Part shown: positions 27,642 to 35,296 of the stretch, piece after piece
How positions within the stretch are numbered: position 1 is the first letter of the stretch
Layout: each line of letters begins with the position of its first letter
Translations under genes and position numbers: made by a program
Assembly (NCBI RefSeq): GCF_015354405.1
Contig: NZ_JADKYP010000033.1
Span: 17,335 to 81,334, forward strand
DNA from: Nocardia sp. BSTN01
GTDB taxonomy: Bacteria > Actinomycetota > Actinomycetes > Mycobacteriales > Mycobacteriaceae
DNA: 64,000 nucleotides
Direction: 5' to 3'
The notes under the pieces: model-generated
Seen by the model: the letters and a program-made list of their open reading frames with translations, nothing else
Told to the model about the DNA's origin: nothing
Databases searched by the model: none

Positions 27642-28349
27642 TCAGACCTGGAAGCGGTACCCCATGCCGGCCTCGGTCAGCAGATGTTTCGGCTGGGACG
27701 GATCGTCTTCGAGCTTGCGCCGCAGCTGCGCCAGATACACCCGCAGATAGTGGGTTTCGGTCGCGTACGTCGGCCCCCACACCTCGCGCAGCAGTTCGCG
27801 ACGCCCCACCAGCTTGCCCTGATTGCGCACCAGCATCTCCAGCACACCCCATTCGGTCGGCGTGAGGTGGACGTCGCGGCCGCCGCGGACGACCTTCTTC
27901 GCCGCGAGATCGACGGTGAACGAGGAGGTTTCGACAATCGGCGCGGACTCCTCGGCCGCCGAGGCGGAACGCCGCACCGCCGCCCGCAGGCGGGCGAGCA
28001 GTTCGTCCATGCCGAACGGCTTGGTGACGTAGTCGTCGGCTCCGGTGTCGAGGGCCTGCACCTTGTCCGAGGAATCGGTGCGGGCCGAGAGCACGATGAC
28101 CGGCATCGAACTCCAGCCGCGAATTCCGGCCAGCACCTCGACACCATCGATATCGGGCAGGCCCAGATCCAGCACGACCACGTCGGGATGTTTCTCCGCC
28201 GCCGCTCGCAGGGCCGCCGCGCCCGTGGCCGCGGTGATCACGTCATAGCCGCGCACCGAGAGGTTGATCCGCAGTGCGCGCAGGATCTGCGGTTCGTCGT
28301 CGACGACCAGCACCCGGACGGCGGCCGGCGGTCGTTCGGCCGAGGTCAC
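27642..28349 (-). CDS. kdpE: KdpE response regulator
   Basis: An OmpR-type response regulator of 235 residues: receiver with VLVVDDEP (Asp17/18) and phospho-acceptor Asp61 in VVVLDLGLPDIDG, then a winged-helix DNA-binding domain (LTPTEWGVLEMLVRN, about 160-235). It pairs with KdpD, which is directly upstream; the GTG start overlaps the kdpD stop (GTGA). It should activate kdpFABC under K+ limitation or salt stress, via sites in the divergent kdpD/kdpF gap. Confidence 0.95.
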   Translation of the reverse strand: MTSAERPPAAVRVLVVDDEPQILRALRINLSVRGYDVITAATGAAALRAAAEKHPDVVVLDLGLPDIDGVEVLAGIRGWSSMPVIVLSARTDSSDKVQALDTGADDYVTKPFGMDELLARLRAAVRRSASAAEESAPIVETSSFTVDLAAKKVVRGGRDVHLTPTEWGVLEMLVRNQGKLVGRRELLREVWGPTYATETHYLRVYLAQLRRKLEDDPSQPKHLLTEAGMGYRFQV

Positions 28350-30868
28350 GACGCCTCCTGTGACTCGCGGGCCGGCAACTCGATCACCATGGTCAGACCA
28401 CCTCCCGGCGTCGGCTCGGCGTGGACGGTGCCGCCCATCGCCTCGACGAATCCGCGGACCACCGACAGGCCCAGGCCCACACCGGTCGAATTGTCGCGGT
28501 CGCCCAATCGTTGGAACGGTTCGAACATCTGGTCCTCGAGTCCGGTCGGAACGCCCGGACCGTAGTCGACCACTGTGATGGATACCTGGTCGCCGTCGCG
28601 TTCGGCGCCAACCCGCACCGGTGTGTCGGGGACCGCCGTGGCGCCCTGCGCCGAATAGCGCAGCGCGTTGTCGATCAGATTGGCCAGCACCCGTTCCAGC
28701 AGGCCGCTGTCGGCGTAGACCGAGACGTCGCCGACCTCGACCTTGACCCGGTCCATCGCCGCCTGGCGGACACCGCGGGTCCCCATCCCGACACCGACGA
28801 CCGCGCGGTTGACCACCTCCTCCAGGTAGACCTGTTTGAGGTTGGGCTCCACCGCGCCGGCCGCGAGCCGCGAGGAGTCGAGCAGATTGCCGACGAGCGC
28901 GGTGAGCTGATCGGTGGATTCCTCGATGGTTTCCAGCAATTCGGCGGTATCGGCGGGGGAGAACTGCACGTCCTCACTGCGCAGACTCGACACCGCCGCC
29001 TTCGCCGCGGCCAGCGGCGTGCGCAGGTCGTGGCTGACCGCCGACAGCAGCGCGCGGCGCAGCCGGTCGGTCGCCATCACACCCGCGGCGGCCTGGGCCT
29101 GGTCGGCGAGTTCACGCTGGCGCACCAGCCCGGCGGCCTGCCCGGCCACCGCCGCGAGCACCCGGCGGTCACCGGGTGTCAGCGCGCGCCCGCTGAGCAG
29201 CAGCCAGTGTTCCTCGTCGCCGGCGCCGATCGCGGTATCGGCGGCACCGGGTGTGCGCGCCGGATCGTGACCGACGCAGGCGATCACCTCCGCGTCGCTG
29301 ACGAAACTCACCGCCCGCTGCCGGTAGATCTCGCGGGCCCGCTCCAGCAGATCGGGCAGGTCGGCGCCGTGCAGGATCGCTCCGGCGAACAGGGTCAGCA
29401 ACTCGGCTTCGCGGGAGGCGGTGCGTGCCTCGCGGGTGCGATTGGCGGAGATGTCGACCAGCGCCGCCACCGCCACCGCCACCCCCGCCATCACGACGAT
29501 GGTGAGGAAGTTGTTGGGTTCGGCGATGGTGAGACTGTGCCGCGGGGTGGTGAAGAACCAGTTCAGCAGCAGCCCGCCCAATACCGCCGACAACGCCGCC
29601 GGTGCGACACCGCCGAGCAGCGCGACCGCGATCACGCCGATGAAATACATCGCGCTCTCACCGGCGAGATCCAGGCGCGAATCCAGCCACAGATAGCAGA
29701 CCAGGGTGATCAGGGTGGGCACCACCAGGGCGGCCAGCCACGACACCGCCGGCCGCTGCCGCCGCAGCAGGGCCGACCAGCGCAGCCCCCGTTGCGCCTC
29801 CTCGTGGGTGACCATGTGGACGTCGATACTGCCCGAGCGCTGCACCACGGTCGCGCCGATGCCCTGGTCGAGGATGCGTGCCCAGCGCGAACGCCGGGAG
29901 GTGCCCACCACCAGCTGGGTGGCGTTGACCTGGCGGGCGAAATCCAGCAGGGCGCTGGGGACGTTCTCGCCGGTCACCGTGTGCAGGCTGGAACCGAGCC
30001 CGGCGGCCAGCTCACGCAGCCGATGCAGCCGTTGCGCCGACACTCCGGCCAGTCCGTCCCCGCGCACGACGTGCACGACGACCAGTTCGGCGCTGGATTT
30101 GGTGGCGATGCGGCTCGCGCGCCGCACGATCGTCTCCGATTCCGGGCCGCCGGTCACGGCGACGACCACGCGTTCGCGCGCCTCCCAGGTCGCGGTGATC
30201 TTGTGGTCGGCTCGGTATTTGGCCAGCGCGGCGTCGACCTGATCGGCCAGCCACAACAGGGCCAGTTCGCGCAGCGCGGTGAGATTGCCTGGCCGGAAGT
30301 AGTTGCGCAGCGCCGCGTCGACCTTGTCGGCGGTGTAGACGTTGCCGTGGGAAAGCCTGCGCCGCAACGCCTCCGGGGTGATGTCGACCAGTTCCACCTG
30401 ATCGGCGCCGCGCACCACCCAATCCGGCACGGTTTCGCGCTGTACGACGCCGGTGATCTGCTCGACCACGTCGTTGAGGCTGTCCAGGTGCTGGACGTTG
30501 ACCGTGGAGATGACGTCGATACCGGCGTCGAGCAGTTCGTGGACGTCCTGCCAGCGCTTCTCGTTCTTCGATCCCGGCACGTTCGTATGCGCGAGTTCGT
30601 CCACCAGGGCCACGGAAGGCGCGCGCCGCAGTACCGCGTCGATATCCAGTTCGGGCAGAGTCGTGCCGCGGTAGGTACGCATCGCCGGCGGTATGCGCTC
30701 GATGCCCTCGAGCAGTTCCGCGGTCTTGCTGCGGCCGTGGGTCTCCACCACCGCGGCGACCACGTCGCGACCACGGCCTATTCGCCGATGTGCCTCGCCG
30801 AGCATCGCGTAGGTCTTACCCACGCCGGGCGCGGCCCCGAGGTAGATGCGTAGTTGTCCGCGCTTCAC
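28346..30868 (-). CDS. kdpD: KdpD sensor histidine kinase
   Basis: An 840-residue K+/turgor sensor kinase. The N-terminal KdpD domain has Walker A GAAPGVGKTYAM (11-22) and the DELAHTNVPGS segment; a USP-like domain follows; then four closely spaced membrane helices (about 385-480), a GAF-like part, the H-box SAVSHDLRTPLAAAKAA (near 610) and the ATPase domain. GTG 30868 overlaps the stop of a 48-codon ORF just upstream. It autophosphorylates and hands phosphate to KdpE. In E. coli the kinase genes follow kdpFABC; here, as in M. tuberculosis, they diverge from it. Confidence 0.96.
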   Translation of the reverse strand: MKRGQLRIYLGAAPGVGKTYAMLGEAHRRIGRGRDVVAAVVETHGRSKTAELLEGIERIPPAMRTYRGTTLPELDIDAVLRRAPSVALVDELAHTNVPGSKNEKRWQDVHELLDAGIDVISTVNVQHLDSLNDVVEQITGVVQRETVPDWVVRGADQVELVDITPEALRRRLSHGNVYTADKVDAALRNYFRPGNLTALRELALLWLADQVDAALAKYRADHKITATWEARERVVVAVTGGPESETIVRRASRIATKSSAELVVVHVVRGDGLAGVSAQRLHRLRELAAGLGSSLHTVTGENVPSALLDFARQVNATQLVVGTSRRSRWARILDQGIGATVVQRSGSIDVHMVTHEEAQRGLRWSALLRRQRPAVSWLAALVVPTLITLVCYLWLDSRLDLAGESAMYFIGVIAVALLGGVAPAALSAVLGGLLLNWFFTTPRHSLTIAEPNNFLTIVVMAGVAVAVAALVDISANRTREARTASREAELLTLFAGAILHGADLPDLLERAREIYRQRAVSFVSDAEVIACVGHDPARTPGAADTAIGAGDEEHWLLLSGRALTPGDRRVLAAVAGQAAGLVRQRELADQAQAAAGVMATDRLRRALLSAVSHDLRTPLAAAKAAVSSLRSEDVQFSPADTAELLETIEESTDQLTALVGNLLDSSRLAAGAVEPNLKQVYLEEVVNRAVVGVGMGTRGVRQAAMDRVKVEVGDVSVYADSGLLERVLANLIDNALRYSAQGATAVPDTPVRVGAERDGDQVSITVVDYGPGVPTGLEDQMFEPFQRLGDRDNSTGVGLGLSVVRGFVEAMGGTVHAEPTPGGGLTMVIELPARESQEAS

Positions 30869-31011
30869 AGGTCCATCATCGCGCGATTCGGACGACGTGG
30901 ACGGCGCGAAACCCGGACGCCCCGAATGCTGCGCCCGCCGGCCACGCGCAGACTCAGCGCGCAGCTGACGAAGGCGATGATCACCATCGCCGCGACCGCG
31001 AAATCCGGCAC
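30865..31011 (-). CDS. Small ORF coupled to kdpD: 48-aa one-helix membrane protein (candidate)
   Basis: A 48-codon frame from GTG 31011 with a textbook AGGAG site 9 bases upstream, ending in TGA that overlaps the kdpD GTG by four bases (GTGA). The product starts VPDFAVAAMVIIAFVSCALS, a single hydrophobic helix, followed by an Arg-rich cytoplasmic tail. The combination of ribosome binding site, overlap and membrane helix argues that it is real and translationally coupled to kdpD. No family recognised. A role in adjusting KdpD is speculation. Confidence 0.55.
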   Translation of the reverse strand: MPDFAVAAMVIIAFVSCALSLRVAGGRSIRGVRVSRRPRRPNRAMMDL

Positions 31012-31303
31012 CCTCTTCTCCTCACGACCCGGTGATTGCCGCTGTGCCCGGTCGACTGCGCGGACCGGACACCACACTGTGCACCGCCGCGCGGGCCCGA
31101 TCGCCGATCTTTACGACTCCTTGACGGGGTCGCGGGCGACCTTGACGCCACGGCAGCGGGATCGCGACGGCCTGTAAGCACCCCGTCAATGCCGTCGCCG
31201 CGACCGCTAAGAAGCCGTCAACGCCGTCGAAATCGGGCGTTTCGCGAGCTTGACTCACTGCGGCGCATTCGCTTCCGGATGCCGTCAACAGAGAGGTTGC
31301 ACT
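31012..31303. promoter_or_regulatory. Divergent kdp control region with repeated CCGTCAA elements
   Basis: This gap must contain promoters for kdpDE (left) and kdpFABC (right). It holds two direct repeats, CCGTCAATGCCGTCG (31183-31197) and CCGTCAACGCCGTCG (31215-31229), identical at 14 of 15 bases and 32 bp apart (about three helical turns), plus inverted copies of the core, TTGACGG at 31121-31127 and TTGACG at 31142-31147. They are candidate KdpE sites. A TTGACT near 31248 could be a -35 box for kdpF. No larger gene fits here. Confidence 0.45.
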
Positions 31304-31387
31304 ATGTCTGTCGCGGTGTTCACCGTCGTGACCGTGGCGATCTTCGCCCTGCTCGGCCTGCTCCAACGGGGGGTGGAACGGCTGTGA
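31304..31387 (+). CDS. Small ORF coupled to kdpF: 27-aa membrane micropeptide (candidate)
   Basis: A 27-codon frame from ATG 31304 behind GAGAGG (spacing about 8). It begins MSVAVFTVVTVAIFALLGLL, one hydrophobic helix, and ends in a short charged tail. Its TGA overlaps the kdpF GTG as GTGA, so its translation would feed directly into kdpF. It is as short as KdpF itself and has the same single-helix shape. I know of no named family; it could be a second small subunit of the Kdp complex or simply a translation-initiation device. Confidence 0.6.
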   Translation: MSVAVFTVVTVAIFALLGLLQRGVERL

Positions 31388-31470
31388 TCGCGAACATCGT
31401 CGGTCTGATCCTGGCGCTCGGCGTCGCCGTCTACATGGTCGCGGCGCTGCTGTTCCCGGAAAGGTTCTAG
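31384..31470 (+). CDS. kdpF: KdpF, small subunit of the K+-transporting ATPase
   Basis: A 28-residue single-helix protein (VIANIVGLILALGVAVYMVA followed by the typical LLFPERF end). KdpF stabilises the KdpFABC complex. GTG 31384 overlaps the 27-aa ORF upstream, and its TAG is followed immediately by the kdpA GTG at 31471, so three tiny gaps chain the first genes of the operon. Too short for most gene finders. Confidence 0.92.
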   Translation: MIANIVGLILALGVAVYMVAALLFPERF

Positions 31471-33141
31471 GTGAGCACAACCACTGCCGGGGTCGTCTTC
31501 GTGGCGACCCTGATCATCGCGCTCGCGGCGGTCCACATCCCGCTCGGCGACTATATGTACCGGGTGTATTCGGGCACGAAACACTCACGGGCCGAACGCA
31601 TCGTCTACCGCGCCATCGGGGTCCAGCCCGGCGTGGAGCAGACCTGGGGCGTCTACGCCCGCAGCGTGCTGGCCTTCTCCGCGATGAGCGTGCTGGCGCT
31701 GTTCTTCCTGCAGCTGATCCAGGGCCACCTGCCGCTGCATCTGCACGAGCCCGGCACCGAGATGACCGCGGCGCTGGCGTGGAATACCGCGATCAGCTTC
31801 GTCACCAACACCAACTGGCAGAACTACGCCGGTGAGTCGACCCAGGGGCATCTGGTCCAGATGGCGGGCCTGGCCGTGCAGAACTTCGTCTCGGCCGCGG
31901 TCGGGATGGCGGTCGCGGTCGCGCTGGTGCGCGGGTTCGCCCGCCGCCATACCGGCGACCTCGGCAACTTCTGGGTCGATCTGGTGCGCGGCACCCTCCG
32001 GATCCTGCTGCCCATCGCGTTCGTGTTCGCGATCGTGCTGATCGCCGGCGGCGCGATCCAGAACTTCCACCCGCACGATCAGGTCGCGCAGACGATCACC
32101 GGTGCGACGCAGACGATTCCGGGTGGGCCGGTCGCCTCGCAGGAAAGCATCAAACTGCTGGGCACCAACGGCGGCGGCTTCTTCAACGTGAACTCCGCGC
32201 ACCCGTTCGAGAACCCGACGGCCTGGACCAACTGGGTCGAGATCTTCCTCATCCTGCTGATCGCCTTCTCGCTGCCGCGAACCTTCGGCCGCATGGTGGG
32301 CAGCACGAAGCAGGGGTATGCGATCGCGTCGGTGATGGCCGTGCTCGCGCTGATCAGCGTGGCGCTGACCAACTTCCTGCAGCTGCGCCATCACGGCACC
32401 GTGCCGACGGCGGTCGGCTCGGCGCTCGAGGGCGTCGAAACACGGTTCGGCGTAGCGGATTCCGCGACCTTCGCCGCGTCGACGACGCTCACCTCCACCG
32501 GCGCCGTCGACTCGGCCCACGATTCCTACACCAGCCTCGGCGGCATGATGACCATGGTGAACATGCAGCTGGGCGAGGTCGCGCCCGGCGGTGTCGGATC
32601 GGGCCTGTACGGCATGCTGATCCTGGCGGTGATCACCGTCTTCGTCGCCGGGCTGATGGTCGGGCGCACACCGGAATATCTCGGCAAGAAGATCACCCCG
32701 CGCGAAATCAAGTTCGCCGCATCGTATTTCCTGGTCAGCCCGCTGATCGTGCTGGTGGGCACCGCGCTGGCGATGGCGTTGCCCGGTGAGCGCGCGGCCA
32801 TGGCGAACTCGGGGCCGCACGGGCTGTCGGAGGTGCTGTACGCCTTCACCTCGGCCGCCAACAACAACGGCTCGGCCTTCGCCGGGCTCGGCGCCAACAC
32901 CGTGTGGTGGAACACCGCCCTCGGTCTGGCGATGGTGCTCGGCCGGTTCGTTCCCCTCGTTCTCGTGCTCGCGCTGGCCGGATCGCTGGCCCGCCAGGGA
33001 CATACGCCCGAATCGATCGGCACCTTGCCGACGCACCGGCCGCAGTTCGTCGGCATGGTCGCCGGCGTGACGCTGATCCTGGTCGGCCTCACCTTCCTGC
33101 CCATGCTGGCGCTCGGGCCGCTCGCCGAAGGAATTCACTGA
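31471..33141 (+). CDS. kdpA: KdpA, K+-translocating subunit
   Basis: A 556-residue polytopic membrane protein, the channel-like K+-selective subunit. It shows the four pore loops of the family, including [34 protein letters not shown] and [18 protein letters not shown]. Normal length. GTG start directly after kdpF; kdpB begins one base after its stop. Confidence 0.97.
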
Positions 33142-33142
33142 A

Positions 33143-35296
33143 ATGACCGCTTCGACAACAGATTCCGTGTCGATTCCGCGCCGCGCCCAACCGTCCTCGC
33201 GCCGCGGCGGCCGTGGCATGTTCGATCCGGCGATGCTGGCCCGGTCGCTGCCCGAGGCCCTGCGCAAACTGGATCCGCGCACACTGTGGCGCAATCCGGT
33301 GACGCTGATCGTGGAGATCGGCGCACTGTGGTCCACGATCCTCGCCGTCGCCCATCCCACGGTCTTCGCCTGGGCGATCGTGATCTGGCTGTGGCTGACG
33401 GTGATCTTCGCCAACTTGGCCGAGGCCGTCGCCGAGGGCCGCGGCAAGGCGCAGGCCGATACGTTGCGAAAAGCCAAGACCGACACCGTCGCCCGGCGAT
33501 TGGTCACCTGGCATCCGGGCGCCGAGGCGCCGCTTGAGGAGAGGGTTCCCGCACCCGAACTGCGGCGCGGCGACTACGTGGTGGTCGAGGCCGGGCAGGT
33601 GGTTCCGGGTGACGGTGACGTCGTGGAGGGCATCGCCTCGGTCGACGAATCGGCGATCACCGGTGAATCGGCGCCGGTGATCCGCGAATCCGGCGGCGAC
33701 CGGTCCGCGGTCACCGGCGGCACCACCGTGCTCTCGGACCGCATCGTCGTCGAGATCACCCAGGAGCCGGGCGGCAGTTTCATCGACAAGATGATCGCCC
33801 TGGTGGAGGGCGCCAGCCGGCAGAAGACACCCAACGAGATCGCGCTGAACATCCTGCTGGCCGCGTTGACGATCATCTTCGTGTTCGCCGTCGTGACGTT
33901 GCAGCCGCCCGCCATCTTCGCCAAGGCGAACAACCCGGGAGTCGGCGACAGCGCGGCGCTGAACGCGCACGGGGTCACCGGCATCGTCATGGTGTCGCTG
34001 CTGGTCTGTCTCATTCCCACGACGATCGGCGCACTGCTGTCGGCGATCGGCATCGCGGGGATGGACCGCCTCGTCCAGCGCAATGTGCTGGCGATGTCGG
34101 GTCGCGCGGTCGAGGCCGCCGGCGATGTGAACACGCTGCTGCTCGACAAGACCGGCACCATCACTCTCGGCAACCGGCAGGCCGCGGGCTTCGTCGCCAT
34201 GCCGGGGGTCACCGAGGACGAGATGGCCGACGCCGCACAGCTTTCCAGCCTCGCCGACGAAACACCCGAGGGCCGCTCGATCGTGGTGTTCGCGAAATCC
34301 GCGTACGGCAAACGCGAACGCACCCCGGGTGAACTGGCGGGCGCGACCTGGGTGGAGTTCAGTGCCCAGACCCGGATGTCGGGCGTGGACCTGCGCGACG
34401 GGCATCGGTTGCGCAAGGGCGCCGCGAGCGCGGTCACCGAATGGGTTCGGGCCCACGGTGGTTCGGTGCCGGAGGCGATCGGGCGGACCGTGGACGGCAT
34501 CTCGGCCTCCGGTGGCACACCGCTGGTGGTCGGCGAACTGCTCGACGGGAAAGCCCGGCTGCTGGGTGTGGTCCACCTGAAGGATGTGGTGAAGCAGGGC
34601 ATGCGGGAACGTTTCGACGAGATGCGCCGCATGGGAATTCGCACGGTCATGATCACCGGCGACAATCCGCTGACCGCCAAGGCGATCGCGGACGAGGCAG
34701 GGGTCGACGACTTCCTGGCCGAGGCCACTCCCGAGGACAAGCTGGCGCTGATCAAGAGCGAACAGGCCGGCGGACGCCTGGTCGCCATGACCGGCGACGG
34801 CACCAACGACGCGCCGGCGCTGGCGCAGGCCGATGTCGGCGTCGCGATGAACACCGGAACGTCGGCGGCCAAGGAGGCCGGCAACATGGTCGATCTGGAT
34901 TCGGATCCGACCAAGTTGATCGAGATCGTCGAGATCGGCAAACAGTTGCTGATCACCCGGGGCGCGCTGACGACGTTCTCCATCGCCAACGACATCGCCA
35001 AGTACTTCGCGATCATTCCGGCGCTGTTCGTGGCATTGTTCCCCGGCCTGGACGTGCTCAACGTGATGCGATTGCACAGTCCGCAGTCGGCGATCCTGTC
35101 CGCGGTGATCTTCAACGCGATCGTCATCGTGGCGCTGATCCCGCTGGCATTGCGTGGCGTCGACTATCGCCCGTCGAGCGCGTCGAAACTGCTCAGCCGC
35201 AACCTCGCCCTGTACGGAGCGGGCGGCATCGTCGCCCCGTTCATCGGCATCAAACTCATCGACCTAGTCGTCCGATTCCTTCCTGGGATGTCCTGA
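33143..35296 (+). CDS. kdpB: KdpB, P-type ATPase subunit
   Basis: A 717-residue P-type ATPase that powers K+ uptake. The phosphorylation motif DKTGTITLG starts at Asp335; the actuator TGESAP loop ([10 protein letters not shown]), the [10 protein letters not shown] segment and the hinge [18 protein letters not shown] are intact. It begins with a short disordered head (residues 1-20). It is one base from kdpA and two bases from kdpC. Confidence 0.97.

Follow-up and report, generated by a model that had tools for sequence, protein, structure and literature searches.

The high-affinity potassium pump KdpFABC is understood structurally from the E. coli complex, which is described as a working, solved pump of four subunits, KdpF being an accessory one (PMC10654040). 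The window analysed here, that is, the whole stretch of 64,000 nucleotides from Nocardia sp. BSTN01, contains a kdp locus in which a short open reading frame (ORF) for a hydrophobic micropeptide (MP) stands directly ahead of kdpF. This arrangement raises the question of whether the ORF is a gene and, if it is, whether its product belongs to the pump, to the sensor KdpD encoded beside it, or matters only through its translation.

Organization of the kdp locus

The features of the locus are listed in Table 1. A sequence-only reading had described an ORF with its own GAGAGG site and a GTGA overlap with kdpF, and every detail was borne out at positions 31291-31387. The overlap comprises 4 nt (31384-31387), and the TAG of kdpF abuts the GTG of kdpA with a gap of 0 nt; the chain MP-kdpF-kdpA is thus free of intergenic space, as had been claimed. 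The translation of the MP is MSVAVFTVVTVAIFALLGLLQRGVERL. In the divergently encoded KdpD, the membrane and kinase domains extend from about residue 377 onward. Among the best 80 KdpA matches in named actinomycetes, the nearest four are from Nocardia, with 82-84% identity.

Table 1. Features of the kdp locus in the window
Feature	Position	Strand	Description
MP gene	31304..31387	+	27 aa, single hydrophobic helix, C-terminal RGVERL; ATG 31304-31306, 27 sense codons, TGA 31385-31387
Shine-Dalgarno-like GAGAGG of MP	31291..31296	+	7-nt spacer to ATG
kdpF	31384..31470	+	28 aa; GTG start 31384-31386, TAG 31468-31470; PF09604 E 4.1e-08, TIGR02115 E 1e-06
kdpA	31471..33141	+	GTG start 31471; PF03814 E 1.6e-229, also matches TIGR00680
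kdpB (by position)	33143..35296	+	P-type ATPase, 717 aa; PF00122 (E1-E2_ATPase) E 3.5e-29
kdpD	28346..30868	-	divergent; PF02702 E 1.4e-96 and kinase domains
kdpD-leader micropeptide	30865..31011	-	48 aa, single helix, GTG start 31011; GTGA overlap with kdpD start, 30868-30865
KdpE-like box (putative)	31204..31225	+	CCGCTAAGAAGCCGTCAACGCC; 5/22 mismatches to M. smegmatis KdpE 22-mer (PMC5401905)
TTGACT, possible -35 element	31250..31255	+	8-mer CTTGACTC in 29/48 distinct genus upstream regions

The micropeptide ORF is a protein-coding gene

The MP ORF is a real gene under protein-coding selection. For 46 distinct sequences, taken from 51 genus loci with a Kdp of the main type, the MP frame has a pN/pS of 0.316. 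The alternative frames give 1.13 and 2.55, and the preceding 120 nt give 0.96-1.00. The MP value is close to that of kdpF (0.353) in the same set, and KdpA, compared in register over 80 codons, gave 0.116. Variation within the MP is concentrated at third codon positions, an excess matched by 3 of 100,000 column permutations. The 4-nt overlap with kdpF occurs in all 51 tabulated genus loci of the main type, and GAGG is found within 20 nt before the MP start in 44 of the 46 distinct sequences. Among the named actinomycete loci, 71 have an MP 25-30 aa long, and a Shine-Dalgarno-like pentamer precedes its start in 53 of them, where randomly placed upstream windows would give 9.5. Codon statistics and conservation together rule out a chance ORF. 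The synonymous-site bias to which the sequence-only reading had looked for a decision is present (0.32 in frame versus 1.1-2.5 in the other frames). Of its assertion that the ORF must be translated, the protein-coding nature stands by codon statistics, whereas the argument from gap-free packing is weaker than the codon evidence.

On profile evidence, the MP is a family separate from KdpF. The window MP has no Pfam or NCBIfam match at E<=1, and the neighbouring kdpF matches PF09604 and TIGR02115. None of eight family members scanned against Pfam and NCBIfam exceeded a curated cut-off; sub-threshold matches included BcsF (E 0.045) and DUF2964 (E 0.0047). Profile comparisons of MP with KdpF scored 0.8-2.6% (actinomycete MP versus Pseudomonadota KdpF, 0.8%), which rules out an origin of the MP as a KdpF duplication. 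A search of the PDB with the MP profile returned one weak, irrelevant match.

Linkage to kdpFA within the genus and the phylum

The MP is tightly linked to kdpFA. The genus was searched with a profile of 24 MPs, a strong match being defined as E up to 2e-8. Strong matches were found in 141 of 149 genus genomes, and all 142 of them precede a same-strand KdpA match by 121-137 nt, with a separate kdpF in between in the 51 tabulated loci of the main type. The five genus genomes lacking kdpA have no strong MP match. Three genomes (G020, G033 and G075) possess kdpA without a strong match; they carry only a divergent Kdp type, and a divergent MP was recognised by reading in each of these loci (L184, L187 and L186, respectively). 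Six KdpA rows lack a strong match: four are of the divergent type and two are second KdpA copies, in G082 and G037 (L171 and L172). No recognisable kdpF or MP was seen upstream of these two copies, nor of a second KdpA copy in G243 (L166).

In a wider sample of the phylum, KdpA was detected in 51 of 296 genomes, three of which (G291, G339 and G366) were left out since their KdpA is only partial. The MP was read as present in 33 of the remaining 48 and as absent in 15, where two of the 33 (G424 and G434) rest on weak resemblance, and where the absent verdicts and many divergent members come from reading ORF tables by position, with no single automatic threshold. Two genomes counted as lacking the MP, G241 and G207 (L032 and L033), do carry a hydrophobic ORF in the expected position, but one that looks unrelated; 28 and 29 of 500 shuffles equal these ORFs in score. 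Each of the 17 phylum genomes that the profile matched at E<1e-4 also carries kdpA.

Several loci of this sample are unusual in other ways. In G268 (L165/L209), an MP-like ORF lies directly before kdpA, and no kdpF was recognised in the 7 kb fetched. The MP and kdpF of G438 (L208) look intact; its KdpA match is confined to profile positions 2-70, and the kdpA frame is open for 143 aa though the contig continues, so kdpA has possibly decayed there. By eye, the KdpF sequence ends in P-[ED]-x-[FL] in 29 of 32 loci with both MP and kdpF versus 3 of 13 without MP, an association for which shared ancestry could account.

Distribution of the micropeptide family across phyla

Conservation of the MP family in three phyla is well supported by profile comparison. 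All 80 named actinomycete loci examined, which are the 80 best KdpA matches and not a random draw, contain the MP ORF, and 73 of them have the exact 4-nt overlap with kdpF. Five others show spacings of -73, -1, 1, 11 or 14 nt, and in two the genes are separated by 88 and 112 nt; in L077, L091 and L092 the MP is thus kept at 73-112 nt from kdpF. The peptide is 27 aa long in 64 of 78 tabulated loci, and some members have longer hydrophilic tails. The retention in relatives that the sequence-only reading had asked about therefore holds for length, overlap and amino-acid sequence.

Among 24 plasmid kdp regions, chosen for diversity from 464 plasmid records with KdpA, the MP was recognised by reading in 15 (4 actinomycetes, 10 Pseudomonadota and Deinococcus radiodurans). 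Seven regions have no MP (two cyanobacteria, Pediococcus, Enterococcus, Halobacterium, Tsukamurella and Duffyella), and two are ambiguous (Listeria and Phocaeicola). Extension of the family to Bacillota and Bacteroidota through the latter two (L201 and L202) was rejected: the candidates are well placed, but 33 and 35 of 500 shuffles equal them. The kdp locus of E. coli K-12 MG1655 has no MP ORF. A tblastn search of plasmids with two MPs gave no match for one and one weak match for the other, and no KdpA was confirmed in viral contigs.

The actinomycete MP profile matched the profile of 11 Pseudomonadota and Deinococcota MPs, whose rows were aligned by hand with a leading gap in two, at 96.7% (P 3.4e-10) over 27 of 27 columns without gaps. 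Fifty column-permuted controls reached at most 7.4%, and KdpF as the positive control in the same actinomycete versus non-actinobacterial test reached 98.2%; MP compared with KdpF scored 0.8 and 2.3% there. Individual scores were 6e-4 for Methylocystis, 0.012 for Caballeronia and 0.047-1.2 for eight others; the Novosphingobium MP was not among the 75 rows listed. The best of 5,316 control sequences scored 0.032, so that only the Methylocystis and Caballeronia peptides, of the 11 non-actinobacterial ones, beat the best control singly. As these individual scores are weak, the cross-phylum claim rests on the profiles.

The position of the gene outside Actinomycetota varies. In nine of the ten Pseudomonadota members a gap of 2-18 nt separates the MP from kdpF, and the tenth, L148, has the 4-nt overlap. 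The order on plasmid pMP1 of D. radiodurans (L145 1-3993), where the MP was assigned by its place and a 4-nt overlap, is kdpB-MP-kdpF-kdpA-kdpC; kdpBAC-kdpD-N of this species is described as one operon (PMC5716572). Since MP and kdpF there follow kdpB and precede kdpA, the MP goes with kdpF-kdpA rather than with the 5' end of the operon.

Upstream region and the leader alternatives

The putative KdpE-like box of the window lies 100 nt ahead of the MP start, and its function is suggested by the motif match. The lowest count among 980 shuffles of 49 genus upstream regions was 6 mismatches. Other genus loci match the M. smegmatis motif less well, with a mean best of 7.7 mismatches (range 4-10) against 10.6 for shuffles, and the exact motif occurs in none of 396 genomes of another genus of the same family. 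No full sigma-70 consensus was found in 30870-31480.

In M. smegmatis, 5'-RACE under K+ limitation placed the kdpF GTG at +120, and the intervening sequence was called a 120-bp 5'-UTR (PMC5401905). In 10 loci (7 named mycobacteria and 3 of another genus of the same family) the MP starts 74-82 nt before kdpF, so a leader of 120 nt as in M. smegmatis would contain the MP. A structured leader, about 100 nt long and upstream of kdpF, has been described in Caulobacter (PMC8552747). For the MP leader, RNA structure was not in excess (z +0.96) and none of the Rfam families passed its gathering score, by which an RNA leader or riboswitch was ruled out.

A related possibility is that the MP is a translational leader, for which only the act of translation counts, either because it feeds ribosomes into kdpF or because it uncovers the kdpF start site. 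The prevalence of the 4-nt overlap (73 of the 80 named loci) and the room left by the M. smegmatis 5'-UTR are compatible with such a role, and any ribosome-binding site of kdpF would, given the overlap, fall inside MP codons. A leader of this kind is at odds with the constraint on the amino-acid sequence and the conservation of 27 columns across phyla, with the nine Pseudomonadota members that do not overlap kdpF, with the results on RNA structure and Rfam, and with the Deinococcus gene between kdpB and kdpF-kdpA. We consider it very unlikely.

A second micropeptide ahead of kdpD

The window encodes another single-helix micropeptide, on the opposite strand ahead of kdpD, which by profile is a distant relative of the MP. 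A divergent kdpD occurs within 1.4 kb in 32 of 36 genus loci examined; in 28 of these 32, or 29 when L029 is included, a small hydrophobic ORF ends no more than about 110 nt from the start of kdpD, and in 15 it overlaps kdpD by 4 nt. The core of this kdpD-leader peptide has a pN/pS of 0.64 versus 1.06 and 1.72 in the other frames (22 distinct sequences), a weaker signal than that of the MP. Of the other named loci, 76 in all (L064-L139), only L116 has a divergent kdpD at a distance of up to 1.8 kb, and no such ORF accompanies it.

The kdpD-leader profile (21 rows, with L020 left out) scored 94.8% against the divergent kdpF-leader type; of 50 permuted controls, one rose to 37.1% and the others stayed at or below 12.1%. 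In turn, the divergent kdpF-leader type scored 90.7 and 94.3% against the two main MP profiles. Direct comparison of the kdpD-leader profile with the main MP profiles failed (1.6% for the actinomycete and 35.5% for the Pseudomonadota profile), so that the kinship would hold only by way of the intermediate divergent type. Against a mixed family profile, 21 of 500 shuffles scored at least as well as the kdpD-leader peptide of the window, and none of 500 did so for another one from the genus.

A micropeptide that precedes kdpD, and not a pump gene, points partly to KdpD. The MP itself might then be a membrane regulator or partner of this sensor, reporting pump synthesis or damping the KdpD signal. 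The peptide before kdpD with the same GTGA overlap, seen in the window as well as in 15 of the 32 genus loci, and its profile match to the divergent kdpF-leader type are consistent with such a role, as is the reported binding of KdpF to KdpD in a mycobacterial two-hybrid test (PMC3618439). Six genomes read as MP-bearing argue the other way, having a KdpD open frame of only 371-426 aa, as does D. radiodurans, where kdpB is the first gene of the operon and the MP nonetheless remains next to kdpF-kdpA. The mere presence of KdpD is uninformative as a discriminator, since it occurs in 47 of the 48 phylum-sample genomes with kdpA (46 over the cut-off), with or without MP. On balance, a KdpD partner appears unlikely.

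Proposed role of the micropeptide

We favour, with a probability of about 0.6, the reading that the MP belongs with KdpFABC as an accessory subunit or a stable partner, a physical role suggested by gene context and sequence. This reading is preferred over a leader or a KdpD ligand because of the tight company that the MP keeps with kdpF-kdpA, and because it persists with a changed gene order, a lost overlap or a short KdpD frame. Most likely, the MP would be a second small subunit beside KdpF, stabilising or tuning the membrane part of KdpA/KdpB. It would be made first, from a transcript probably induced at low K+, and the GTGA stop-start overlap would pass ribosomes to kdpF and then to kdpA, so that the small subunits would be made in step with the channel subunit. 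The MP residues of 68 actinomycete members include no basic one in the first 8 positions and about two in the last 8. By the positive-inside rule, the basic end of a membrane helix is cytoplasmic; the C-terminus of the MP is therefore predicted to be cytoplasmic. We infer its translation in vivo, its membrane topology, its physical binding and an effect on pumping.

Several observations weigh against the pump-partner reading. The E. coli complex works though E. coli K-12 has no MP ORF; as the gene is missing there, the E. coli complex cannot inform on the presence of the MP in a pump. The MP was also read as absent from the 15 of 48 phylum genomes and the 7 of 24 chosen plasmid regions given above. 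Moreover, G227, which has no MP, likewise has a short KdpD frame (396 aa), so a short KdpD does not simply go together with the MP. The literature searched contained no biochemical, proteomic or ribosome-profiling evidence of the MP as a pump subunit.

Alternatively, the MP could serve as a factor for assembly or insertion, aiding the folding of KdpA/KdpF and staying outside the finished complex. Its place as the first gene ahead of kdpF-kdpA, its size of one tiny helix and its absence from some lineages would suit such a function; nothing specific speaks against it, and sequence cannot tell it from a subunit. We regard an assembly factor as quite unlikely.

Annotation and implications

The MP is a rarely annotated gene. 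In 10 of 11 plasmid regions with both an MP and a gene table, it is unlisted, where the PLSDB gene table is incomplete and original records may list more; in the eleventh, from Arthrobacter (L194), it is listed as the end of an overlong 'hypothetical protein'. The table for D. radiodurans pMP1 lists neither MP nor kdpF.

The MP thus represents a genuine micropeptide family, widespread and seldom annotated, that is tied to the Kdp pump, and is a missed gene to add in many genomes. That E. coli K-12 has no MP gene may explain why it was overlooked. A broader scenario, to which we give somewhat less than an even chance, is that KdpFABC was ancestrally a five-subunit complex (MP-KdpFABC), that most actinomycete pumps and many proteobacterial ones retained the fifth subunit, which was lost toward E. 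coli, and that in the genus a duplicate was recruited before kdpD, tying the sensor to the pump. If the five-subunit reading were true, E. coli structures and measurements would describe a reduced pump. A conserved additional membrane peptide, present in the majority of the actinomycete loci sampled and in many of the proteobacterial ones, would mean that the model pump is incomplete and that the mycobacterial kdpF '5'-UTR' of 120 nt is likely coding sequence.

Comparison with known systems

The kdp operon of Clostridium acetobutylicum was written kdpZYABCXDE (Treuner-Lange 1997, cited in PMC5401905), which puts kdpZ, like the MP, two positions ahead of kdpA. By this operon name, the gene at the place of the MP may already be called kdpZ, the comparison being one of name and not of sequence or size. 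A kdpZ is presumably also found in Alicyclobacillus. The literature searched, which lacks most subscription papers, contained no description of this peptide; it has possibly been named at its locus in one or two species, and is not recognised as a conserved family in the literature and databases searched.

KdpF is the nearest parallel within the same operon, as it too is a single helix of about 28 residues with a basic residue near the C-terminus. The two nevertheless belong to different families, encoded by adjoining genes that each have their own conserved pattern. CydX and AcrZ are likewise small bacterial membrane peptides that join a larger membrane complex; theirs are complexes other than Kdp, and the likeness is an analogy only. 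The same applies to phospholamban and sarcolipin, which are animal proteins and, like the role proposed here for the MP, small single-helix partners of a P-type ATPase (PMC10654040).
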